From: Alicyclobacillus sp. | GTDB taxonomy: Bacteria; Bacillota; Bacilli; Alicyclobacillales; Alicyclobacillaceae | DNA: 36,520 bases | Assembly (NCBI RefSeq): GCF_023511815.1 | Contig: NZ_JAIMAV010000022.1 | Span: 1 to 36,520, forward strand | Reading direction: 5' to 3' | Shown here: in pieces, positions 1,776 through 34,749 of the stretch | Layout: every line of letters begins with the position of its first letter | Position numbering within the stretch: position 1 is the first letter of the stretch | The notes under the pieces: model-generated | What the model saw: the letters and a program-made list of their open reading frames with translations, nothing else | The model's database searches: none | Told to the model about the DNA's origin: nothing | Made by a program: the position numbers and the translations under genes

Positions 1776-3503
1776 TCACGCCCTCCCCTCGCCCATCGCC
1801 CGCCCCGCCAACGATCCCTCGAGGGCGGAGAGAAATTCTTGCACCGTGTAGTGCTCTCCGTCAAAGCGGCGCAGGGACCGCATCCGGTGCCCGGAAATCG
1901 CCCGCTCGACCAGCTCGGCCAGCTGTCCGCGCGCGTTGTACTCCACCACCGCGACCGTTTCCGCCCCCGCGGCCGCCCGCCGGATGGCGTCCACCGGCAC
2001 CGGCCAGAGCTGCCGCAACATCACACCGCGGTATCGGTCGGGACGCAGTGTTACCGCCGCATGGATCAGTTCTCCGAACGCGCCCGTGCCGACGAGACAG
2101 ATGGGCGCCTGCGGGGAGCCCACGACCGTCAGCGGCCGCCCGTACGCAACATGATCCACTTTCTCGAGGCGCCGCCGGTGCAACGACGGCCGAACGGCCG
2201 TGAAGTCAGGTTCCATCCACCCCCGCTCGTCGTGCTCATCCCCGCTGGCCACGTGACCCCCGCCCCGCACCCCGGGGACCGTCCGCACCGGCCCGCCCTC
2301 CTCCGGTGCGAACCGGCGGTACCCGGTGACCTCGGCGGGAGGCAGAAGGGTCCGCCCGCGGTCCACAGGGACACGCTCCAACACCTCGCACACCCGGTCC
2401 CAGGGCACGCTGATGCGCCGGAGGGCGAGATCGAGATCGAGCGCCACGAGCACAGGGCACTGATGCAGATCCGCCAGATTCAGGGCCTCCTGCATCACCT
2501 GCAGGCAGTCCAACACCCCGGTGGGCGCCAGGACCACCCGGGGGAACTCCCCGTGGCCCGCGTGGATGAGATGGCGCACGTCGCTCTGCTCCGTCTTGGT
2601 CGGCATGCCCGTCGAGGGACCGCCGCGCTGATTGTCGACCACCACCAGCGGGACCTCGATGGTCGCCACGTACCCCAGACCTTCCGTCATCAGGTCCATG
2701 CCCGGGCCGCTCGTCGCGACAAACGTCCGCATGCCGGCGTAACTGGCCCCGATGGCCATGTGGATGGCGGCGATCTCATCCTCCACCTGATACGCGCGCC
2801 CCCCCACCTCCGGCAACCACTTCATCATGTATTCGAGGATCTCGGAGGCCGGCGTGATGGGATACCCGCAGTAGATGCGAACCCCGCCGTGCAGCGCCCC
2901 CAGACACAGGGCGTCATTCCCCGACAGCGTCACCGTATCGGGCGGCGCCACCGCGTCGTCGGTCCCCGTGCCCTCGATCGCCACCGGGTTGAACGCGGCC
3001 GCCGGTGGGCACGCCGATGCCCCCGGCCCTCCCCTCGCCCGTTCGTACCCTCGGCGCAGCGGATCCAGGGAGACGGGATGGTGGAAATGTTCCTGCGCGG
3101 CCCGCTCCACCTCCGCCAGCGCCAGGCCCAGTTTGCAGCTGACCACCCCGAGGGCCCACAGATTGAATCCGAGAGAATCGAGCGACTCGCGCTGGCCGGA
3201 TGGGATCCATTCGACCGACGCGGCGCCGAACCATCCGGATGCGTCCCGCACGCGGTGCCGATACCGCGCCGCGGCCGCTTCATCCCACACCACCGCCACA
3301 TCGACGGCCTCGCTGCGCGCGGGGGCCTCCCCGCCCGCCCCTTCGTCCACGTATGCCTCGAAGCTGGTCAGGCCCCCGCGGATGATGGTGGAAAAATCGC
3401 GCCATGTGCGAAACCGCCGCCCTTTGGCGCGCAGAACCTCGGACAGGATGGCGCCCGCCGTCTCGACGCCCTGACCCGTGTAACCACAGATGGCGATGAC
3501 CAT
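1776..3503 (-). CDS. korA: 2-oxoacid:ferredoxin oxidoreductase, fused gamma-alpha subunit
   Basis: 575 residues. The first ~185 residues form the gamma domain (GYTGQGVETAGAILSEVL, then RGGLTSFEAYV). From about residue 200 comes the alpha (pyrimidine-binding) domain with GVRIYCGYPITPASEI, QVEDEIAAIHMAIGAS and SGPGMDLMTEGLGY. A gamma-alpha fusion is the normal form of KorA in the two-subunit enzymes. The ATG at 3503 was chosen because AGGAGG lies 8 nt upstream; the frame is open further upstream but that part is not protein-like. It is the first gene of korAB. Two palindromes lie upstream (3526-3554). With KorB it could link the TCA cycle to ferredoxin reduction. Confidence 0.93.
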   Translation of the reverse strand: MVIAICGYTGQGVETAGAILSEVLRAKGRRFRTWRDFSTIIRGGLTSFEAYVDEGAGGEAPARSEAVDVAVVWDEAAAARYRHRVRDASGWFGAASVEWIPSGQRESLDSLGFNLWALGVVSCKLGLALAEVERAAQEHFHHPVSLDPLRRGYERARGGPGASACPPAAAFNPVAIEGTGTDDAVAPPDTVTLSGNDALCLGALHGGVRIYCGYPITPASEILEYMMKWLPEVGGRAYQVEDEIAAIHMAIGASYAGMRTFVATSGPGMDLMTEGLGYVATIEVPLVVVDNQRGGPSTGMPTKTEQSDVRHLIHAGHGEFPRVVLAPTGVLDCLQVMQEALNLADLHQCPVLVALDLDLALRRISVPWDRVCEVLERVPVDRGRTLLPPAEVTGYRRFAPEEGGPVRTVPGVRGGGHVASGDEHDERGWMEPDFTAVRPSLHRRRLEKVDHVAYGRPLTVVGSPQAPICLVGTGAFGELIHAAVTLRPDRYRGVMLRQLWPVPVDAIRRAAAGAETVAVVEYNARGQLAELVERAISGHRMRSLRRFDGEHYTVQEFLSALEGSLAGRAMGEGRA

Positions 3504-3525
3504 GCACAGACCTCCTCTTTGACAA

Positions 3526-3554
3526 CGGATCGATCCGCAAGAGATCCGATCTCT
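3526..3554. promoter_or_regulatory. Two short palindromes upstream of korA
   Basis: CGGATCGATCCG (3526-3537) is a 12-bp perfect palindrome and AGAGATC-C-GATCTCT (3540-3554) is a 7+1+7 dyad. Both lie within 52 bp of the korA start. They could be operator sites. I see no convincing -10 box to anchor them. Confidence 0.3.
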
Positions 3555-3581
3555 GAACCGGGACAATCCACGGGATCCTCT

Positions 3582-3620
3582 GAAAACAACACGCACACGG
3601 GGCCGGCCTGGCCCCCGTCC
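3582..3620 (-). terminator. Terminator after yhaN
   Basis: On the minus strand a GC-rich stem (ACGGGGGCC with GGCCCCGT, one bulge) is followed by a T-rich run GTGTTGTTTTC. It separates the yhaON unit from korAB, which therefore needs its own promoter. Confidence 0.5.
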
Positions 3621-3719
3621 GGCCGGCGGGGTCCGCGTCCGCTGCGGCCATGCGCGCACAGCCGAAGGCTTCATGCCGAGCCGGACGGTGCAAAGGGCTC
3701 CCCCGCCAGAGCCGGTTTC

Positions 3720-8688: not shown

Positions 8689-10992
8689 TCACAAATCCGG
8701 ATGTTCGTGTTTGGCGCGCAACCGGCGCCAGCGGCGCTCCACCTCTGCTTCGAATTGCTCCAACAGCGCCCGGTTTTCAGGTCGGAGCATGTGTCGGGTC
8801 TTGCCCATCCTCTTCAGCCAATCGGATACCGGAATTCGTTCCCCTTTGGCCTCCGGATCGTAGGTGATGGTCGTTTTCCCGTGCTCCACCTCGTACAACG
8901 GGAAGAAGCAACACCGGACGGCCGCGCCGACGATGACGTTGCCCTGATCATCCGGCGATTGCCAGTTGAGCGGGCACGCAATCAAAATTTTTCCGTACAC
9001 CAATCCCTCGTGCTTCGCGTACCACTGCGCCTTGGCCGCTTTTTGGATGAGATCCTGCGGAAACGCCTCGCTTCCCGTGAACACGTACGGAATGTTCGCA
9101 GCCGCCATGATCTGAGGTGTATCCTTGTGTGGGAAGGATTTCCCCTGCCCCTTTTCACCGACGCCGGAGGTCGACGTCCGGTGTCCGAGCGGCGTTGAAT
9201 AGGACAGTTGGGCGCCGGTATTCATATACCCCTCGTTGTCGTATTCCAGGATGATCATGCGGTGGTTTCTCAGCGCCGCCCCCAGCGCTGGACCCATGCC
9301 GATGTCCATCCCGCCGTCGCCGGTGACCATGATGAACGTGATGTCGTCCCCCACCGGAATCTCCCCGCGGCGCTTTTTCTCCCAGAACATCTCAACCAGG
9401 CCGGATAAGGTCGCCGCCCCGTTCTGGAACAGATTGTGCAAATACGTGACCCGATGAGAGGTGTAGGGGTAACCCGTCGTGGTCACCATGGCGCAGCCGG
9501 TCTGATACAACACCACCACGTCACCCTCGATGCCTTTTAGGAACGTCTCCACACCCGGGAAGATGCCGCAACCAGGGCAGGCCCCGTGTCCGGGCGCCAG
9601 ACGCCGGGGTTTCGCGGTGAGCGCGCGCAGATTGGGTGCTTTCACGCGGAGACGACCCGTGGATTCATCCCGATCGACCGAGATGAACCCGGTGGTCTGC
9701 TCACGGGTCAGGGGCGGCAGGCCGGGAGCGAATGGCACGGCGTCTTCGTCGCCCGGTTCGACCCCGTAGTAATCAAACGAGGGTACGTCCGCCCCCTGCA
9801 GCCACCCGAGGCACTCACCGAACAGATTCATCGCGTCCTGCGGGTAAAACTCGCGGCCGCCGAGGCCAAAGACGCGTGAGAGGACATGGACGGGTGCGTG
9901 GATCTCCTGCAGCGCCGCCTTGACCTCATGGGTCAGGTTCGGCCCGTGTCCACCGTACGAATCCGCGCGTTCCGCCACCAGGACCACTCTGACGTGGGCA
10001 AGTGCTTCCTGAACGGCTCGCAGCGGAAAGGGCCGAATGAGGTTCGGCGAGACAATCCCGGCCCGGACACCGCTTGCGCGGAGCTCATCGACCGCCGCGC
10101 GCGCGGTCTCAGCGGCCGAATTGAGGATGAACAGAGCCACCTCCGCATCCTCCATCCGATACAGGTCCAGGGGACCGTAGAAGCGCCCGGTGAGAGCCGC
10201 GTACTCCTCCGCCACCTCTTGGAAGACCTCCCCCGCCCGGTACATGGCGAGAGACTGCTGATATTTGTTGTTGATAAAATCTGGCTCGTTCATATAGGGA
10301 CCCACCGTGACCGGGTGGCGAGGATCCAGGGTTGTCACCGGCGGTTCCGGCACCGGACCGACGAAGTTTTGAACGGTCTGCCGATCACGGAAAAATTTTA
10401 CCCGGCGCTTCGCGTGCGACGTGAAAAATCCATCGTAAGCGACGATCACGGGCAGGCGAACATCGCGATGCTCGGCCACCCGTAGCGCGATGAGGTTCAT
10501 GTCGTAGACGGCCTGCGGGTCACGCGCGAGCAGAATGGGCCAGCCGATGTTGAGCCCGTAGTACAGATCCGAATGATCCCCATGGATGTTCAACGGCCCC
10601 GAAACCGAGCGTGTGACCAGGTTCAGCACCATGGGAAACCGTGTGCCGGATTGAACGGGCAGGTTTTCCAGCATGTACAAGAACCCCTGCGCAGAGGTGG
10701 CATTGAAAACCCTGCCGCCGCCGGTGGAGGCCCCATAGCAGATTCCCGCGGCGCCATGCTCTCCGTCCGCCGGAATCATGACGATGTCGTGTTCCCCCCG
10801 AACTCGCATCTCATCGAGATATTCCGCCACCTCGGTGGACGGCGTGATCGGAAAGTACCCCATCACATGGTAGTTGATCTGAGCGGCTGCCTTGGCGGCC
10901 ATCTCGTTGCCCGACCTCATCTCTTCCAGTTCAAGCGGTTTCCCTTCAGCCGGTGGTTGAGTGGATGGATGATCGAGAAGACGCATGCTCAT
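8689..10992 (-). CDS. 2-oxoacid (pyruvate-type):ferredoxin oxidoreductase, fused alpha-beta subunit
   Basis: 767 residues. The N-terminal part is the alpha domain (GYFPITPSTEVAEYL, PADGEHGAAGICYGAS, SAQGFLYMLENLP). The domain II region PFPLRAVQEALAHVR with ERADSYGGHGP follows around residues 320-350. From about residue 465 comes the beta domain with CPGCG (first Cys at 472), QTGCAMVTT, the TPP motif GDGGMDIGMGPALG and a late cysteine in ILIACPLNW. This alpha-beta fusion complements the gamma-delta fusion just upstream to make a complete enzyme. The ATG at 10992 overlaps the upstream stop as ATGA and sits after GGGAGGTG. Domain details favour pyruvate or a related 2-oxoacid. The enzyme is distinct in architecture from KorAB 5 kb away. 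Confidence 0.88.
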   Translation of the reverse strand: MSMRLLDHPSTQPPAEGKPLELEEMRSGNEMAAKAAAQINYHVMGYFPITPSTEVAEYLDEMRVRGEHDIVMIPADGEHGAAGICYGASTGGGRVFNATSAQGFLYMLENLPVQSGTRFPMVLNLVTRSVSGPLNIHGDHSDLYYGLNIGWPILLARDPQAVYDMNLIALRVAEHRDVRLPVIVAYDGFFTSHAKRRVKFFRDRQTVQNFVGPVPEPPVTTLDPRHPVTVGPYMNEPDFINNKYQQSLAMYRAGEVFQEVAEEYAALTGRFYGPLDLYRMEDAEVALFILNSAAETARAAVDELRASGVRAGIVSPNLIRPFPLRAVQEALAHVRVVLVAERADSYGGHGPNLTHEVKAALQEIHAPVHVLSRVFGLGGREFYPQDAMNLFGECLGWLQGADVPSFDYYGVEPGDEDAVPFAPGLPPLTREQTTGFISVDRDESTGRLRVKAPNLRALTAKPRRLAPGHGACPGCGIFPGVETFLKGIEGDVVVLYQTGCAMVTTTGYPYTSHRVTYLHNLFQNGAATLSGLVEMFWEKKRRGEIPVGDDITFIMVTGDGGMDIGMGPALGAALRNHRMIILEYDNEGYMNTGAQLSYSTPLGHRTSTSGVGEKGQGKSFPHKDTPQIMAAANIPYVFTGSEAFPQDLIQKAAKAQWYAKHEGLVYGKILIACPLNWQSPDDQGNVIVGAAVRCCFFPLYEVEHGKTTITYDPEAKGERIPVSDWLKRMGKTRHMLRPENRALLEQFEAEVERRWRRLRAKHEHPDL

Positions 10993-12008
10993 CGTATGTT
11001 CACCTCCCGCTCGTGAAGCCGGTGCGCCACGCGGTGTTCCAGCACGTACGCGTCCGATTCTGCGATGGTCGACAGGGCATGCGTCGGACAAGCCACCACG
11101 CACTTCTGGCAACCTTTACAGTACTGGTAATCGATCCCGACGAGATACTGGAACACGCGCCCCCGGCCGTTATCTCGCGATTCCCAAACGAAGCACGCGT
11201 CCGGACACACCTGGTCGCAGGCCGCGCAGTGGATGCAGGCGTCCAAATCCAGAGCCGGGATGAAGCCCTGTCGAGATGCGCTGAGGTCCCGGGCGACGGA
11301 GTTGCCGGCACTCGGAATCGCACCGCCGATCCATTGGGTTTTGTACCCGAGCACGGGAGACACCCGGGACTGTGGGGCTTTGTCCAATCCGGACGCGTCG
11401 CCACCGGTTCCCTGGGCTTCCCGCACCTGCGCAAGCCCTCCCTCAAACGTCCGGAGATTGGCGTCCAACAGATGCGCGTATCGTTCCGAGAAGACTTCCT
11501 CGATGCCGCTTCGCACCGCGTTAGGATCCAACTGCGGCACCACGTGGCAGAGGGCACCGAGCATCGCGGTGTTCAACCGGGCGCCCTCCCGATGGGCGAT
11601 GCCGAGGGCATCCACGCAAGCGATGTGAATGTCCGCACGCTTCACCTGGCGCCGCACCTCGTCCGGGGACCGTTTGGTATTGACCACCAACGTGCCGCCG
11701 GGACGCAGCCCCGACAGGGTGGACGGTGAACGCAGGAGAGCCTCATGAAACACCGCCACCACATCCGGTTCGTCGACGGGGTAGGTTCCTCGAATCTCCA
11801 CCTCCGGCGGGGCGAACCGGATGAACGCTTTCACCGGAGTCCCTTTCTTCTCCGAACCGTAGGACGCTGCGTACCAACCGTTCCATCCCTGACGAAGCAC
11901 ACCCGATTCCGACAAGATTTTGGCAGCCAGGTTGGCCCCCAAGCCGCCAATGGATTCCATCCGGATTTCGAGAAACGAATGGGCGTTTTGAACAGACGGT
12001 TCATTCAC
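10989..12008 (-). CDS. 2-oxoacid:ferredoxin oxidoreductase, fused gamma-delta subunit with two 4Fe-4S clusters
   Basis: 339 residues. The gamma domain is N-terminal (RMESIGGLGANLAAKILSE, then WYAASYGSEKKGTPVKAFIR). The delta domain has two ferredoxin motifs: C258-x2-C261-x2-C264-x3-C268 and C297-x2-C300-x2-C303-x3-C307. The family role is CoA binding and transfer of electrons to ferredoxin. The GTG at 12008 was chosen for the GGGGGTGATC ribosome binding site just upstream. It overlaps the alpha-beta gene by 4 nt, so the subunits are made together. An inverted repeat at 12059-12100 may control it. Confidence 0.9.
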   Translation of the reverse strand: MNEPSVQNAHSFLEIRMESIGGLGANLAAKILSESGVLRQGWNGWYAASYGSEKKGTPVKAFIRFAPPEVEIRGTYPVDEPDVVAVFHEALLRSPSTLSGLRPGGTLVVNTKRSPDEVRRQVKRADIHIACVDALGIAHREGARLNTAMLGALCHVVPQLDPNAVRSGIEEVFSERYAHLLDANLRTFEGGLAQVREAQGTGGDASGLDKAPQSRVSPVLGYKTQWIGGAIPSAGNSVARDLSASRQGFIPALDLDACIHCAACDQVCPDACFVWESRDNGRGRVFQYLVGIDYQYCKGCQKCVVACPTHALSTIAESDAYVLEHRVAHRLHEREVNIR

Positions 12009-14541: not shown

Positions 14542-15987
14542 TCAGCGGACCGTCACAAGTCCCAATCCCTCCGCCACGCGGGCGCCGTACTCTTCGTCCG
14601 CACGCCGGAAGTGTTCCAGCATTCGCAACTGGATGTCCCGGTGGGCGAGCCGAAGGGATGACACGATGTTGTCGATGAGGTCCGCCCTTTCGTCGGGCGG
14701 CAGCAGGCGATACAGGTCCCCGGCCTGCGTGTAGTGATCGTCGTTGGGATACCGATGGCTCGCGGCCGTTCCCGACACCGCCAGCGCCGGAAACGCGGCG
14801 TCCGGCACCTGTACCGGACCACCAAAGCTGTTCGGCTCGTAGTTCACCTGTCCGCCTCCGTTTCCGTCAAAGCGCATGAACCCGTCTCGCTGATAGTGGT
14901 TGACCGGCGACAGCGGCCGATTGACGGGCAGGAGCGCGTGATTGACGCCAAGGCGGTAGCGATGCGCATCGGCGTACGCGAACAGCCTTCCCTGCAGCAT
15001 CTTATCCGGAGACGGTCCGATTCCCGGCACGAAATTCGCCGGGGAGAAAGCCGCCTGTTCCACCTCGGCAAAGTAGTTCTCCGGATTCCGGTTCAACACC
15101 AGCCGGCCGACCGGGATCAGGGGGTAGTCCTTGTGAGACCAAACCTTGGTGACATCGAATGGATCAAACCGGTACGTCTGCGCATCCTCCAACGGCATGA
15201 TCTGCACGTACAGGGTCCAGGACGGATACTCGCCGCGCTCGATGGCCTGATACAGGTCCCTCGTCGCATGATCCGGGTCTTCCCCGGCGACGCGCACCGC
15301 CTCCTCACGGCGGAAGTTCTGTATCCCCTGATCCGTTTTGAAATGATATTTCACCCAGACGGCCTCACCGCGGTCGTTGTACCACATGAACGTGTGGCTG
15401 CCGTACATGTGCATGTGGCGGTAGGACCTGGGGGTCCCGCGGTTGCTGAACAGAATGGTGATCTGGTGCATCGCCTCAGGGGAATGAGACCAGAAGTCCC
15501 ACGCCATGTTCGGATCCCGCAGACCGGTCGCCGGATGGCGTTTCTGGGAGTGGATGAAATCCGGAAACTTCAACGGGTCGCGGATGAAAAAGACCGGCGT
15601 GTTGTTTCCGACCAGATCATAGTTTCCCTCTTCGGTGTAGAACTTGATGGCGTTGCCCCGCGGATCTCGTTCGGCGTCCGCCGAGCCCTTCTCCCCCGCG
15701 ACGGTCGAAAAACGGATGAACACCGGTGTGCGCTTCCCGACCTCGCTCAGAAATTTCGCCTTGGTCCAGCGGTTGACGGGATGCGTGACCTCAAAGTATC
15801 CGTAGGCGCCCGCACCCTTGGCGTGCACAACGCGCTCCGGGATGCGCTCGCGATTGAAGTGCGCCAGTTTCTCCAGCAGGTGGACGTCCTGCATCAACAC
15901 CGGGCCTCTCTGTCCGGCGGTCTGGGAGTTCTGATTGTCCGCCACGGGAGCGCCCGACGCGGTCGTGAGTCGCTTGGGCTCGTTCAT
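14542..15987 (-). CDS. katA: Monofunctional haem catalase, small-subunit clade
   Basis: 481 residues, the size of the small-subunit catalases. The distal His55 is in RVVHAKGAG and the distal Asn128 is in [15 protein letters not shown]. The proximal haem-ligand tyrosine is in [13 protein letters not shown] near residue 340. It converts hydrogen peroxide to water and oxygen in the cytoplasm. The ATG at 15987 follows GGAGGTG by 6 nt. A near-perfect Per box lies 19 nt upstream of the start and perR is the next gene upstream, so induction by peroxide through PerR is very likely. No gene follows on the same strand for 427 bases. Confidence 0.96.
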
Positions 15988-29605: not shown

Positions 29606-30919
29606 TCAGGAATGTTGACGCTGTGCGAGTCCCGCGGCGCGGGCGCCATCCGGCGTCATCCGGCCTTCCGCGCGGTCTTGCGCCAGCACGGCCTCGGCGA
29701 TCCGTTCGAGCGCAATCACCACATGCTCCAGCGTCAGGCCCCCCTGCATGTAGCCGGTGTACGGCGGCCGCATCGGCCCGTCGGCGGACAGCTCCAGCGA
29801 CCCGCCCTGGATGAACGTCCCCGCCGCCATCACCACCTGGTCTTCGTAGCCGGCCATCGGCGCCGCCTCGAGGCGCACAAAGGCATCCACCGGTGCGGCC
29901 GACTGCACCGCCTGGCAGAACGCCAACAGAGCCCGCGGGTCCCCGAAGCGCGCCGACAGGATCAGGTCGGACCGCGGCTCCTGCCAGCGCGGTGAAACCT
30001 CGAACCCCAACCGCTCCAGCACGCACGCGGCCAGGATGGACCCCTTCAGCGCCTGGGCGACGGTGTGCGGGGCGAGGAACAGACCCTGGTAGAACAGGCG
30101 CAGCACGCCGAGGGAAGGCCCCGCCTCCAGGCCGATGCCGGGGGCCGTCAGCTGTTCGGCCGCCCGCTGCACGTACTCCGCGCGCCCGGCGACGTAGCCG
30201 CCGGTCGGTGCGACCCCGCCCCCCGGATTCTTGATCAGCGACCCCATTACCAGGTCCGCCCCGGCGTGGGTCGGTTCGCGGTCCTCGACGAACTCGCCGT
30301 AGCAGTTGTCGACCATCAGGACCAGGCCATCGCCCAAGGCAGACCTCAGGGCGCCAAACGCCGCCTCCAGGTCCCCCACGGACAGGGCCCGGCGGTCGCT
30401 GTACCCGCGGGAGCGCTGGAAGAACACCGCCCGCGTGCGCGGGGTCAGGGCGTCCATCACGCGCCGGATATCCACCCCGCCGTCCTCTGTCAGCGGCACC
30501 ACCGTGTGCGAGACGCCCCACTCGGCGAGGCTGCCCGGCGCCGGGCGCAGACCGACCACCGATTCGAGCGTGTCGTACGGAGTCCCCGTCGCGAACACCA
30601 GGTGATCCCCCGGGCGCAGCACCCCAAACAGGCCGAGACGCAAGGCGTGCGTACCGGAGATCACCTGCGGCCGCACCAAGGCCGCCTGTGCGCCGAACAC
30701 CCGCGCAAAGACCCGTTCCAGCTTGTCGCGCCCCTCATCGCCGTACCCGTATCCGGTCGATCCGTTCAGGTCGTGGGCGCCCACCCCCTCCGCCCACAGG
30801 GCCTCCAGCACCCGCCGTTGGTTCGCCAGCGCCAGTTCGTCGACCTCCGCCCACCGTTTTTGCACCTCGCGGCGGCAGGCGGCGACCAGGCGCATCGCCT
30901 CTTCCCGAACCGTCGTCAA
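29606..30919 (-). CDS. ynbB: YnbB-like PLP enzyme (methionine gamma-lyase family, 'aluminium resistance' type)
   Basis: 437 residues, close to B. subtilis YnbB. The PLP lysine is Lys230 in GSLIKNPGGGVAPTGGYVAG. Other conserved parts are GSTGYGYGDEGRD, PQVISGTHALRLGLFGVLRPGD, TGTPYDTLE and VDNCYGEF. The family is fold-type I, often labelled methionine gamma-lyase, but the reaction is not settled. The TTG at 30919 overlaps the hflX stop as TTGA and has GGAGG 9 nt upstream. An ATG nine codons later lacks a ribosome binding site. It ends the operon that begins with spoVK; glnR follows after 61 nt. Confidence 0.88.
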   Translation of the reverse strand: MTTVREEAMRLVAACRREVQKRWAEVDELALANQRRVLEALWAEGVGAHDLNGSTGYGYGDEGRDKLERVFARVFGAQAALVRPQVISGTHALRLGLFGVLRPGDHLVFATGTPYDTLESVVGLRPAPGSLAEWGVSHTVVPLTEDGGVDIRRVMDALTPRTRAVFFQRSRGYSDRRALSVGDLEAAFGALRSALGDGLVLMVDNCYGEFVEDREPTHAGADLVMGSLIKNPGGGVAPTGGYVAGRAEYVQRAAEQLTAPGIGLEAGPSLGVLRLFYQGLFLAPHTVAQALKGSILAACVLERLGFEVSPRWQEPRSDLILSARFGDPRALLAFCQAVQSAAPVDAFVRLEAAPMAGYEDQVVMAAGTFIQGGSLELSADGPMRPPYTGYMQGGLTLEHVVIALERIAEAVLAQDRAEGRMTPDGARAAGLAQRQHS

Positions 30920-32208
30920 TTCGCTCGTCCTCCCGTCACCATCACGTGGAACCGGGCGCTTCGGGCGAGAATTCGGCGGCACAGGCGGTCCGCCAAGCGC
31001 CGCGGCACCCGGACCACCGCCTCGGCCTCGCCCGCCCCCGCATCCTGCATCGCCGTCACCGCTCCCGCTCGGGCGATCTCCCGCCACACGGCCTCTTCGC
31101 CCAGCGGCCCGGTCACGCGTACCTCGACCGGATCGAGCGCGAGGAGCCGATCCACCGTCTCGTACAACTCCGCGAGCCCCCATCCTGACGCGGCGGATCC
31201 GTACAGCGACACCACCGCCTGCCGGTCGGGAGCCGGACGGTGGCCCGCCTGATCCATCTTGTTGAACCACGTCAGCACCGGCTTGTCCAACGCCCCGATT
31301 TCCCCGAGCACCCGATACGTGGTCGCCAGGCGTTGCTCCACCGGCGCGGTGGCGTCCACCACGTGGACAATCAGGTCGGCCGCCCGCACCTCCTCCAGCG
31401 TGGCGCGAAACGCGTCGACCAACAGGTGCGGCAGATCTTGCACGAACCCGACGGTGTCCATCAACACCAACTCGCCCGCGCCGAGGCTGCGGACCCGGCG
31501 CGCCACCGGATCGAGCGTGTCGAACAGCCGGTCGTGGCCGGTGGCCACACCGCCCGCCCCGCGGTCCTTTGTCCACCGGGCCAGCAGGGTTGTTTTGCCA
31601 GCGTTCGTGTACCCCACCAGCGCGACCAACGGTACCGCGGCGCTCCGGCGGGCGCGCTGAACCTCCCGCGTGCGCCGTACCTCGGAGAGCTGCTGGCGCA
31701 ACCTGTCGATGCGCTCGCGGATGCGCCGCCGGTCCATCTCCAGCCGGGTCTCGCCCGGACCGCGGGTTCCGATGCCGCCTCCCAGCCGCGAGAGTTCCAC
31801 CCCGCGTCCGGTCAGCCGCGGCAGCAGGTACTGCAGCTGCGCGATTTCAACCTGCAGGCGGCCCTCCCGGGTGCGGGCGCGCAGGGCGAAGATGTCGAGG
31901 ATCAGCTGGGTGCGGTCCATGACGCGCCGGTCCAGCGCCGCTTCCAGATTGCGCACCTGGGCGGGGCTCAGCTCGCCGTCGAAGATGACGAGCTCCGCTT
32001 CGCACGCCTCTGCCTGCTGGCGGATTTCCTCAATCTTCCCCCGTCCCAGGTACAGGGCGGCGTCGATGCGATCCCGCGACTGGACGCACACCGCACACAC
32101 CTCGGCGCCCGACGCCTCGCACAGCCCTCGCAATTCCTCCACCCGCTCCGAAAACGTCCGCTCCGGTTCGCCCGTAACCCGGCGCACGCCGAGCACCACT
32201 CGCGTCAT
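30916..32208 (-). CDS. hflX: Ribosome-associated GTPase HflX
   Basis: 430 residues. The N-terminal HflX domain has DGELSPAQVRNLE and DRTQLILDIFALRARTREG, followed by GGGIGTRGPGETRLEMDRR. The G domain starts at Gly199 (GYTNAGKT), with DTVGF (G3) and NKMDQ (G4). In the family it binds the 50S subunit and splits or rescues stalled ribosomes, mainly under stress. The ATG at 32208 is 8 nt past the preceding stop, with only a weak ribosome binding site, so translation is probably coupled. The upstream part of the frame is not HflX-like. Confidence 0.93.
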   Translation of the reverse strand: MTRVVLGVRRVTGEPERTFSERVEELRGLCEASGAEVCAVCVQSRDRIDAALYLGRGKIEEIRQQAEACEAELVIFDGELSPAQVRNLEAALDRRVMDRTQLILDIFALRARTREGRLQVEIAQLQYLLPRLTGRGVELSRLGGGIGTRGPGETRLEMDRRRIRERIDRLRQQLSEVRRTREVQRARRSAAVPLVALVGYTNAGKTTLLARWTKDRGAGGVATGHDRLFDTLDPVARRVRSLGAGELVLMDTVGFVQDLPHLLVDAFRATLEEVRAADLIVHVVDATAPVEQRLATTYRVLGEIGALDKPVLTWFNKMDQAGHRPAPDRQAVVSLYGSAASGWGLAELYETVDRLLALDPVEVRVTGPLGEEAVWREIARAGAVTAMQDAGAGEAEAVVRVPRRLADRLCRRILARSARFHVMVTGGRAN

Positions 32209-32216
32209 TCCCTGCG

Positions 32217-32453
32217 TCAACTCCCGCCATCTCGTGCCAGTCCGTCTCGTTTCGCCTGTCCATTGTACCACGCGCCCGCGGGCACATCACAGATCGGGCA
32301 GACACCCTCGCGCAACGCGCGCTCGCGCAGGGCGATCGGCGCCTCCGCAAGCCCGAGGGATCGCCCCAAACGAATGCCCGACCGCCGTCCGGCCGCAAAC
32401 GCGGCGGCGGCGACGGCCAAGGACACCAACACCCCGATCCACCACCCCATCAC
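32217..32453 (-). CDS. Small one-pass membrane protein with CPIC motif
   Basis: 78 residues. One membrane segment (about residues 3-22, WWIGVLVSLAVAAAAFAAG) is followed by a basic stretch and a cytoplasmic tail with CPICDVPAG (Cys52, Cys55), then a charged end. A single CxxC suggests metal or redox binding as a dimer. The GTG at 32453 overlaps the preceding stop and has GGAGG 9 nt upstream; the ATG at 32450 is the next codon. I do not recognise the family. Tight packing with the UbiA-like gene and hflX suggests joint expression. Confidence 0.7.
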   Translation of the reverse strand: MMGWWIGVLVSLAVAAAAFAAGRRSGIRLGRSLGLAEAPIALRERALREGVCPICDVPAGAWYNGQAKRDGLARDGGS

Positions 32454-33064
32454 CGCGAATCCCCTCCCTCATCCGCGTCCCACAGGCGGACGGTGGTCAC
32501 CTCCGAGAGCACGGTCAACACCGCCAACGCGACGAACGCGAGGGCCGTGTCCTTCGCGTCCAGCACCACCGCCGCGCACAGCGCCAGCAGCACCAATAGC
32601 GTCGTCTCGACCACCCCGATGCGGATGGCCAGGTTGCGTTGCCCGGTCAATCGATCCCGCGCGGCGTCCGAAAGGTCGTCCGTCCAGTCGATCACGGCGG
32701 CCACCGCGATCGCCCACAACGCCGTTTGCCACCCGGCGGTGAGCCCGGCGAGGGCGACGGCCGCGAGCGTCTCCACCCAGGCGGGCAGACGGGTGGGCAA
32801 CCGCTCCCGCAGTTGGTGGAACATGCCCACCGCGTAGCTGGCGAAAAAAAGGGCGCAGGCGAGCCGAGGATCGATGGCCGCGGCCAGGAGGCCGACGGCC
32901 AACCCGTACGGCAGCAGGGCCCGCCCAAACCGGGCGGCCAGGGTGCGTTCTCCGCGCAGGATGTCGTATTCGGCGTCGAGGTGATCGTCCATCAATTTGA
33001 TGGCCGCCCCGATGAGCAACAGCGCGGCAAACGGCGCGACCCACTCATGCAAAGCGCCATACAA
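32450..33064 (-). CDS. Short UbiA-like membrane prenyltransferase
   Basis: 204 residues, against 280-300 for most UbiA proteins. Both Asp-rich motifs are present: MDDHLDAEYD (Asp26, 27, 30, 34) and DWTDDLSD (Asp126, 129, 130, 133). About five to six hydrophobic segments lie around and after them. Family members join a prenyl diphosphate to an aromatic or lipid acceptor in the membrane. The first motif lies very near the N-terminus, so one or two helices typical of the family are missing. The ATG at 33064 overlaps the GTPase gene by 20 nt and follows GGGAGGTG. Substrate unknown. Confidence 0.7.
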   Translation of the reverse strand: MYGALHEWVAPFAALLLIGAAIKLMDDHLDAEYDILRGERTLAARFGRALLPYGLAVGLLAAAIDPRLACALFFASYAVGMFHQLRERLPTRLPAWVETLAAVALAGLTAGWQTALWAIAVAAVIDWTDDLSDAARDRLTGQRNLAIRIGVVETTLLVLLALCAAVVLDAKDTALAFVALAVLTVLSEVTTVRLWDADEGGDSR

Positions 33065-33668
33065 CCCGCTTCACCTCCCGGAACCCGGTGCCGTGCAGGG
33101 CGGAGATGGGCAGGACGCGCTGCTTCGAATAGCGCCTGCACAAATACCGGTAACCGTCCAGCGCTCCGGAAAGGTCCATCTTGTTGGCGAGGATGACGTA
33201 CCCACCGCGCCGCAGGCCGAAGGACGCGATCTGCTCTTCCAGCGCGTCCCATCCCGCCGGCCCACCCTCCCGTCCGGCGATCCCCCGCCCGATGGCACCG
33301 GCATCCACCATGTGCAGGATCAGATCCGCGTCCATCATCGCCTGCAGGGTCTGTGCCATCGACTCGCGCAAGGGTCCGTCCGGGTGAATCCCCGCGACCA
33401 GACCGGTGGTGTCGGTCAACAACAGCTGCCGAGCGGTCTTGCCCGAGGGAAACTCCAGCGCGATGGACTGGAGGCAGCGGGTTCGGTGCGGATGCGCGTC
33501 CGAGAGCGATGCCTCCGCGTCCGCGACGGACAGGCGGCGGCAATCCGTCCGGCCGTCCGCCTCCTGCACCAACAGGCGCAGTTCCCGCATTCCCATGTAG
33601 CGGGCGAAATGGATGCAGAACAGCGTCTTGCCGACATTCGCCTTGCCGACCACCAGGCTCCGCTTCAC
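33045..33668 (-). CDS. Small GTPase of uncertain family
   Basis: 207 residues that are almost all G domain. G1 is GKANVGKT at residues 8-15, G3 is DTTG at 86-89, G4 is NKMD at 162-165 and G5 is SALHG at 189-193. The region between G1 and G3 (residues 20-80) is long and basic, and I cannot place it in Era, Der, YsxC or Obg. The GTG at 33668 overlaps the spoVK stop as GTGA; GGAGG lies 10 nt upstream. The position between spoVK and a membrane enzyme suggests a role in sporulation or the envelope, but that is inference. Confidence 0.8.
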
Positions 33669-34642
33669 GGCGAGATCCCCTCCCATTGAAAGTCCTCCGG
33701 ACGCAGCGTCATCAACTGTTCCCGGCTCGGACGGGGGCTGTCGAAGAGCCGCACCGCCTGCAGGCGAATGGCCTTCTCCACCAGGTTGCGGACGTAGCGC
33801 GCATTGCTGAATCCGGGTCCGCCCGCGACCAAGAGGACGCGCTCCAGGTGCGTGCGCAGCTTCGCCTCCGCCTCCGCCGAGAGCTGGTACTGCCGTTGTT
33901 GCGCGGTGCGCCTGGCGATTTCGAGCAGGGCGGCCGCGTCGTAGTCGGGGAACGTGATATGAATGGGAAACCGGCTGGGCAGGCCCGGATTGGTCGCGAG
34001 AAACCAGTCCATCTCCGCCTCGTACCCGGCGAGGATGACGATGAACTCGTTGCGGTGGTCCTCCATTCCCTTGACCAGGCAGTCGATGGCCTCCCGGCCG
34101 AAGTCCTTCTCGCCGCCGCGGGCGAGCGAATACGCCTCGTCGATGAACAGCACCCCGCCGAGCGCCTTTTTGACGGCCTCGCGCGTCTTCTGGGCGGTGT
34201 GCCCGATGTACTCGCCCACCAGGTCCGCCCGCTCCACCTCCACCAGGTGGCCGCGCTCCAACAGGCCGCAGGCGTGGAACATCCGGGCCAGCATCCGGGC
34301 CACGGTCGTCTTGCCGGTGCCGGGGTTTCCTTTGAACACCATGTGCAGGACCACCGGCTCGCTCTGCAGGTGCTGCTGGCGGCGCCGCTCCTGCATGTAC
34401 AGATAGGCGAAGATCTCGCGGACCACCGATTTCACCGGATCGAGCCCGACGAGCTGATCCAGCTCCGCCAGAATGGCGCCGAGCGCCTCCTTGGTCACCT
34501 TGGGTGCGGCGGGCGCGTCCGCCTCGGTGCCGCCGGAAAGGCGCACCAGCGCCTCCTGCAGGGCGATCTGGCCCTGCCGGTATTGATCGATCACGAAATC
34601 CGCGGGCCGCCGCGGAAAGGGTGTACGCGGGTGCACAGGCAA
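33665..34642 (-). CDS. spoVK: Stage V sporulation protein K, AAA+ ATPase (CbxX/CfqX family)
   Basis: 325 residues, like B. subtilis SpoVK (about 320). Walker A is GNPGTGKT at residues 105-112 and Walker B is LFIDEAYS at 164-171 (Asp168, Glu169). LPSRFP holds the arginine finger. The family remodels protein complexes; SpoVK is needed for spore maturation in the mother cell. The TTG at 34642 was chosen for GAGGTGATC 7 nt upstream; a GTG two codons later is possible. It heads the spoVK-ynbB gene string. No clear sigma-E promoter was recognised upstream. Confidence 0.9.
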
Positions 34643-34749
34643 ATCGGATCACCTCACCTCCCCAACCCGACATCCCGGGCGGGGTGTTTCGGCGCGCACG
34701 ATAACCTATGCACCGAGGGGAATCTGGGTGATCGCCCAAAGACGAGGGC

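Follow-up and report, generated by a model that had tools for sequence, protein, structure and literature searches.

Directly behind spoVK in the stretch of Alicyclobacillus sp. DNA analysed here (36,520 nucleotides, referred to below as the window) lie three genes encoding an Era-like GTPase, a short membrane protein related to the UbiA superfamily (mini-UbiA) and a one-pass membrane protein with a CxxC motif. The order spoVK-GTPase-mini-UbiA-CxxC recurs within the Alicyclobacillaceae and, outside this family, in five more of the families sampled from the class and in Clostridia-type genomes. We are highly confident that this trio is a functional partner of SpoVK in sporulation, a link that is much safer than the chemistry proposed for it below. 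The features concerned are the following:

33665 to 34642, minus strand: spoVK, encoding an AAA+ ATPase (325 aa; matches to TIGR02881 at 4.8e-122, AAA and AAA_lid_6)
33045 to 33668, minus strand: gene for an Era-like GTPase without KH domain (207 aa; GTG start)
32450 to 33064, minus strand: gene for the mini-UbiA membrane protein (204 aa; TTG start)
32217 to 32453, minus strand: gene for the CxxC one-pass membrane protein, of no known family (78 aa; coordinates with the GTG start)
30916 to 32208, minus strand: hflX, a neighbour that is probably outside the module
34702 to 34729, minus strand: sigmaK-type promoter motif ACC-N16-CATAnnnTA, 59 bases from the spoVK start
32975 to 32989, minus strand: first Asp motif of mini-UbiA, DDHLD (residues 26-30)
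32666 to 32680, minus strand: second Asp motif of mini-UbiA, DDLSD (residues 129-133)
32289 to 32300, minus strand: CPIC motif of the CxxC protein (residues 52-55)

The overlaps re-read from the window are the same as those given in an earlier note on this DNA: 4 nt between spoVK and the GTPase gene, 20 nt between the GTPase and mini-UbiA genes, and 4 nt between the mini-UbiA and CxxC genes if the latter starts at GTG (1 nt with the next-codon ATG at 32450), followed by a spacing of 8 nt to hflX. The gene names and motifs given there were also correct, and the GTPase, left unplaced there, is assigned here to an Era-like fold. The best NCBIfam model for the window SpoVK is TIGR02881 (spore_V_K), matched with 406 bits, slightly under a cut-off (422.95) that only 45 of the 270 sample genomes matching at E ≤ 1e-80 exceed; the window HflX matches TIGR03156 with 414 bits, over the cut-off. 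Neither a sigma70-type promoter nor a terminator-like site was found between positions 30800 and 34900. Elsewhere the window holds two oxoacid:ferredoxin oxidoreductase (POR_N) genes (1776-3674 and 8689-11112) and a catalase gene (14542-15987).

Among the window's genome and 60 relatives, mini-UbiA was found in 35 of 61, all 35 belonging to the window's family (37 genomes); in the two family members without it (G008 and G014), the GTPase match stops at a contig end. With start codons chosen by script, the overlap between spoVK and the GTPase gene is 4 nt in 32 of 35 own-family loci (window included; 10 or 19 nt in the others) and that between the GTPase and UbiA genes is 20 nt in all 34 loci carrying UbiA. 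Conservation of the overlaps throughout the 35 loci indicates that the arrangement of these genes is more than chance. One own-family sequence (L047:5575-6183, genome G013) is a mini-UbiA with degenerate Asp motifs and without an adjoining CxxC gene or hflX, perhaps a dying copy. No mini-UbiA was found in the 18 genomes of the sister family; nine of the loci with a GTPase match were examined there, and all nine have the order spoVK-GTPase-hflX.

To analyse the relation to spoVK, we used a single fixed set of 398 genomes from the phylum, in which spoVK (E ≤ 1e-80; 270 genomes) served as the marker of spore formers. The mini-UbiA profile matched 93 genomes at E ≤ 1e-5, or 92 after dropping G603, whose match (E 1.4e-6, 310-aa frame) is an ordinary UbiA and which likewise is without spoVK. 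The GTPase set consists of 103 genomes selected by hand (matches at E ≤ 1e-16 outside frames of ~430 aa); the other 105 of the 208 genomes matching the GTPase profile were left out as HflX, judged by frame length for the matches listed (E of about 5e-15 or better), and HflX-sized matches were found in genomes lacking spoVK too (e.g. G620 and G723). Of the mini-UbiA genomes 91/92 carry spoVK, as do 102/103 of the GTPase genomes, and each of the two genes was found in only 1 of the 128 genomes without spoVK (Fisher P = 6e-17 for mini-UbiA and 1e-19 for the GTPase, relatedness of the genomes being ignored). In the sole exception, G602 (95% complete, 110 contigs), spoVK was not found at 1e-10 either. 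The UbiA gene lies no more than 300 nt behind the GTPase gene in 88 of 92 genomes, and in the other four at a distance of 338 to 2955 nt. The GTPase gene follows spoVK at no more than 300 nt in 44 of the 50 pairs with listed coordinates. Of the remaining six pairs, three are separated by 5.8-8.5 kb, one has its genes on opposite strands at a distance of 17 kb, and two are divided between contigs. The GTPase-UbiA pair is intact away from spoVK in four genomes (G478, G516, G434 and G493). As an outcome that would speak against its proposal, the earlier note had named a trio found mostly in non-spore formers or away from spoVK; with spoVK as the marker, the opposite was observed, since the trio tracks spoVK and mostly adjoins it.

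The block also extends well beyond the window's family. The surveys described here overlap (the same genome may appear under an L and a G number, e.g. L109/L178), so that their counts are not additive. When the GTPase profile was run against 398 genomes of the class, 55 matched at E ≤ 1e-15, and 20 of these loci, mostly from other families, were read: the block is complete or almost complete in five families (f14, f29, f36, f37 and f44), and two (f19 and f22) have spoVK-GTPase but neither membrane gene. In one locus (L158) only a UbiA fragment is present and in another (L161) 1.2 kb separate spoVK and the GTPase gene. A mini-UbiA profile scan that covered named genomes gave 47 loci, 26 of them Alicyclobacillaceae-like and 21 from Clostridia-type genomes or Bacillota MAGs, including Dethiobacter, Syntrophomonadaceae and Sporomusaceae. 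In 46 of the 47, spoVK or its C-terminal half stands ahead of the GTPase gene, the exception (L126) being on a 6.9-kb contig, and the CxxC gene is present in 46 of the 47 as well; in L122 the order is GTPase-CxxC-UbiA, the two membrane genes being swapped yet together. Two frames appear extended by eye, which may reflect fusion or assembly error: the UbiA frame of L127:5827-6858 runs into a CxxC-like tail without cysteines, and the CxxC frame of L126:4528-6333 into an AMP-ligase-like protein. Among 40 phylum loci chosen by hand from the 103 GTPase genomes to span families, spoVK (or its C-terminal half) adjoins the GTPase gene in 39, and the two membrane genes were both found in 30.

On the basis of this distribution we reject a recent local insertion beside spoVK. 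The word 'inserted' in the earlier note, which suggests such an event, is doubtful: the arrangement appears to be old and the loci without the trio may be derived. Since the trio occupies the same chromosomal place in many families, its loss from lineages without it is more likely than repeated insertion. Twelve such spoVK loci, chosen by hand, read spoVK-hflX-ynbB-glnR-glnA in five cases, spoVK followed by ynbB in five, hflX-ynbB-glnA in one and no known neighbour in one; the first of these orders is that of the Bacilli loci L231 and L233. As hflX stands 3' of spoVK in 6 of the 12 loci without the trio and is absent beside the trio in several relatives (e.g. L064-L069), it is probably not part of the module. 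On the other side, the CxxC gene is followed in Clostridia-type genomes by dapF-like genes (9 loci, 7 distinct genomes) and by dapL-like aminotransferase genes (11 loci, 9 distinct genomes); in L110:6871-9007 the two genes match DAP_epimerase and Aminotran_1_2.

The GTPase matches Pfam MMR_HSR1 with 31.9 bits, over the cut-off, and its AF2 model (pLDDT 92.5) has Era as nearest solved fold (7c1o; Z 19.5, rmsd 2.4, 164 residues). It contains the motifs GKANVGKT, DTTG, NKMD and SAL, which we take to be G1, G3, G4 and G5, respectively, and which are present in Era. However, it matches the Era model with only 27.7 bits against a cut-off of 237 and ends after the G domain, whereas Era has a KH domain; it is also set apart from Era by its tie to spoVK and the membrane genes.

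Proteins of the UbiA superfamily are about 290 aa long with nine transmembrane helices. Mini-UbiA shares with these prenyltransferases (PF01040; MenA, CtaB and the archaeal 4od4 and 4tq6) the two Asp motifs, the membrane helices and weak but repeated profile matches, yet has only 204 aa and 6-7 hydrophobic helices and is tied to spoVK. The window protein matches PF01040 with 31.2 bits (1.8e-7), below the cut-off of 34.2, and 35 of 47 aligned members (the window protein being one of the 47) reach E ≤ 0.01, with 9.5e-10 as the best value. The Asp motifs are near-invariant in 92 aligned rows, which include a few duplicate genomes (L118/L187, L124/L180) and do not include L047: D26 and D30 are Asp in 92/92 and D27 in 89/92; D129 and D133 are Asp in every row but that of the fragment L158 (91/92), D130 in 85/92 and D137 in 81/92. 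At D34, which closes the first motif, 72/92 rows have Asp; the replacement in the other 20, together with the degenerate L047, suggests that some copies may not be enzymes. In the genome's own canonical UbiA proteins, inspected by eye, the leading residue is Asn in the first motif of 3/3 and in the second of 2/3, whereas mini-UbiA has Asp at these places. Alignment of the mini-UbiA profile with a single canonical UbiA protein, one on the right strand, gave no match in hhalign. Judged by the profile matches, mini-UbiA is a distant relative of the UbiA superfamily, and we do not file it as a member.

The AF2 model of mini-UbiA (pLDDT 92.7) consists of long helices (residues 2-29, 42-64, 66-84, 95-110, 112-132 and 151-196). 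Its structural matches are weak, namely CrtE (7my7, Z 7.3, the best), AfUbiA (4tq6, Z 6.8) and ApUbiA (4od4, Z 6.6), Z values within the range that the tool calls common for helical proteins; in Foldseek E exceeds 0.1 and the TM score to ApUbiA is 0.43. Isoprenoid synthases or UbiA proteins nonetheless make up 43 of the best 50 structural matches, including the first 33. The trans-isoprenyl diphosphate synthases (CrtE, FPPS), which are soluble and larger, have two DDxxD motifs, as does mini-UbiA. In contrast to them it is a membrane protein; the polyprenyl synthetase family is absent from its listed Pfam matches, and PDB profile matches reach only E about 0.1 or worse. Among 30 carriers of mini-UbiA chosen by hand, four (G432, G471, G611 and G643; 98-100% complete) have no PF01040 match at E ≤ 1e-3, that is, no canonical UbiA, and on this ground we reject menaquinone or heme O prenyl transfer as a general role of mini-UbiA. 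An undecaprenyl-PP phosphatase was set aside as well, since active sites of UbiA type face the cytosol. A putative UbiA prenyltransferase gene of C. difficile, CD0982, is found in a table of sporulation sigma-factor targets in the available part of PMC3789822.

The CxxC protein has one hydrophobic stretch and gave no match in Pfam or NCBIfam, its relatives giving only scattered weak Pfam matches. C52, C55 and G26 are invariant in 38/38 sequences, and the two residues between the cysteines vary in Clostridia-type copies. By likeness to the Rad50 zinc hook and other CxxC zinc knuckles, its single CxxC could pair with a second copy around zinc; unlike the hook, it is a one-pass membrane protein, and its profile matches to zinc knuckles, including the Rad50 hook (1l8d, E 0.93), are insignificant.

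We took the sigmaK consensus to be ACC-N16-CATAnnnTA. The sole exact match on either strand of the window, at 34729-34702, is located just before spoVK. A spelled-out consensus was not found by literature search, and in the available part of PMC517825 it is given as a logo. That part also reports two promoters for B. subtilis spoVK, the dispensable sigmaE promoter P1 and the sigmaK promoter P2; in the window it is a sigmaK-type motif that stands before spoVK. In relatives, a similar site scoring at least 8 is present upstream of spoVK in 26 of 89 (0.9 in shuffles). In this test relatedness among loci is ignored, and Alicyclobacillaceae contribute 15 of the 26 strict sites. The same type of site was found upstream of none of the inner genes or HflX (GTPase 0/105, UbiA 0/91, CxxC 0/88, HflX 0/62; together 0/346), and upstream of YnbB, GlnA and GerA in 1/76, 0/49 and 0/14, respectively. 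With a looser threshold, 52 of 90 spoVK genes have the site (10.1 in shuffles) and 38 of 90 fail. Because the motif stands before spoVK and not before the inner genes, the block from spoVK onward is likely to be transcribed late in the mother cell, and late mother-cell expression is a prediction in which we have good confidence. A sigmaE promoter was considered and rejected: there is a small excess, only upstream of spoVK (9/90 against 3.4 ± 1.9 in shuffles, which reach up to 10; 12/93 at P ≤ 0.05 with a cruder score), and no such promoter in the window.

In nine genomes (L099, L177, L119, L202, L218, L219, L220, L225 and L230), among them A. fastidiosus, A. suci, A. sacchari, A. tengchongensis, a Sporomusaceae MAG and four others, a serine-recombinase element about 3 to 15 kb long interrupts spoVK, A. 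sacchari having two copies in tandem. The element sits at about residue 190 of spoVK in eight cases and near the Walker A motif in one. The four recombinases checked match Pfam Resolvase, Recombinase and Zn_ribbon_recom, and some elements seem by eye to carry metabolic genes. Two further loci (L221 and L222) have the C-terminal half of spoVK only, with a recombinase, and in G023 spoVK is in two parts on contigs C12 and C19, possibly another element; three recombinases searched against the spoVK-GTPase intervals of G516 and G478 gave no match. A near-match to the sigmaK-type motif is kept in 7/7 of the N-terminal halves checked. Like the skin-type elements of sigK, gerE and spsM, these split a sporulation gene and carry a serine recombinase, and we consider them candidate skin-like excision elements; they are a separate observation, made in related loci and not in the window. 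Unless excised, such an element parts the trio from the spoVK promoter region, which fits a need for the trio in the mother cell only; the split would be tolerable if the operon were needed only after the putative excision. A rearranged spoVK was not found in our literature search; the word spoVK was not found in the available parts of PMC5595907 and PMC13141910, the latter of which describes a sigK-integrated prophage in Alicyclobacillus.

According to the available text of PMC10659427, B. subtilis SpoVK, of which the first gene of the block encodes the counterpart (TIGR02881, 406 bits), is located at the mother-cell face of the outer forespore membrane, where it is reported to act as a chaperone activating MurG, which makes lipid II for the cortex. 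The legend of its Figure 3A refers to operon drawings around SpoVK relatives with a 'zinc-binding' label, so that the present arrangement may be drawn there; neither 'UbiA' nor 'prenyl' occurs in the text available. Searches of the open PMC literature listed no paper on the trio. The window spoVK differs from that of B. subtilis in carrying the trio behind it, and to our knowledge B. subtilis is without the trio. Together with the 179 of 270 spoVK genomes that have no mini-UbiA, this indicates that SpoVK action in itself does not require the trio. That the trio forms a membrane-bound unit acting with SpoVK in sporulation, as the earlier note proposed, is suggested by the linkage and the promoter motif.

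A diphosphate-lipid type of site in a membrane protein, combined with linkage to the gene of the SpoVK chaperone, points to the polyprenyl-linked part of cortex synthesis. In the reading that we tentatively prefer, spoVK and the trio would form a single mother-cell operon, transcribed late from a sigmaK promoter, and the role of the trio, at the outer forespore membrane, would be to handle a polyprenyl lipid on behalf of the cortex. We picture mini-UbiA as a minimal enzyme in the membrane, of the isoprenoid-synthase kind, whose Asp motifs would hold Mg2+ and a (poly)prenyl (di)phosphate at the mother-cell face of that membrane; it would produce a polyprenyl lipid, alter one or pass one on, and this lipid would serve the synthesis of cortex precursors or be adapted to it. 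The Era-like GTPase would be a switch that times the activity of the module, and the CxxC protein would connect the components as a small anchor, either zinc-binding or redox-active. We infer mother-cell expression, the membrane site, the substrate class and the switch and anchor roles; polyprenyl-lipid chemistry for the cortex, taken on its own, is plausible but carries, if anything, slightly less confidence than this reading.

Two other explanations retain the partnership with SpoVK and differ in what mini-UbiA does. It might make a separate prenyl product, such as a spore membrane terpenoid or a prenylated small molecule or protein, instead of a lipid of the cortex pathway. The DDxxD pair and the isoprenoid-synthase-like fold suggest a class of substrate and not a product, and UbiA-family proteins use many acceptors; however, the reported client of SpoVK, MurG, acts at a lipid-linked step of peptidoglycan synthesis (PMC10659427, available text), and the diaminopimelate-pathway-like genes behind the CxxC gene in the 9 and 11 loci mentioned above lend weak support to a peptidoglycan setting, so that we regard a separate product as a serious if unlikely possibility. 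Alternatively, mini-UbiA might be a non-catalytic sensor or scaffold: by binding the diphosphate of undecaprenyl-PP or of lipid I/II, it would serve as a checkpoint at the forespore membrane and there, jointly with the GTPase and the CxxC anchor, recruit SpoVK or gate it. Its reduction to 6-7 helices and the loss of D34 in 20/92 rows are compatible with such a role, for which the available text of PMC10659427 provides a precedent in a known checkpoint that acts on SpoVK and lipid II via SpoVID. But D26, D30, D129 and D133 hardly vary at all across the phylum as sampled, beyond what would be expected of a pure scaffold, and a sensor of this kind seems rather improbable to us.

The remaining explanations deny the trio its place in SpoVK function. 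Given that the GTPase fold is closest to Era (Z 19.5) and that hflX often follows the trio, the GTPase could act on ribosomes as HflX does, the cluster adapting translation late in sporulation with the membrane genes as passengers. The GTPase (207 aa) is without a KH domain, though, 92 of the 103 GTPase genomes also have mini-UbiA, and hflX is missing beside the trio in several loci; we consider this very unlikely. There might also be no functional link at all, the trio merely being located in an old conserved chromosome stretch (spoVK-hflX-ynbB-glnR-glnA). The distances of SpoVK, GTPase, UbiA and YnbB do correlate alike (r = 0.77-0.84 over 43 loci), so that co-inheritance is not special to the trio. 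Against this, the trio genes are nearly absent without spoVK (1/128) and the GTPase-UbiA pair stays together in the four genomes where it lies away from spoVK, leaving hardly any room for mere neighbourhood.

The favoured reading, a polyprenyl-lipid module acting with SpoVK, can be extended to a bolder one, which we offer as speculative and would not expect to hold in full: with mini-UbiA, a new class of isoprenoid synthases may have come to light, minimal in size, embedded in the membrane and equipped with two DDxxD motifs, which would stand between the UbiA proteins and those prenyl diphosphate synthases that are soluble. Under the control of an Era-like GTPase together with a zinc-linked anchor, mini-UbiA would, with the SpoVK chaperone, make or channel a dedicated polyprenyl carrier for the spore cortex.

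Endospore survival rests on the cortex, and the supply of its lipid-linked precursors on the mother-cell side is poorly known. The trio, which probably helps to build the spore wall, accompanies spoVK in a third of the sampled genomes that bear this gene (91/270) and, being missing from B. subtilis as far as we know, would be invisible to work on that organism. It would explain part of the SpoVK step in other spore formers.
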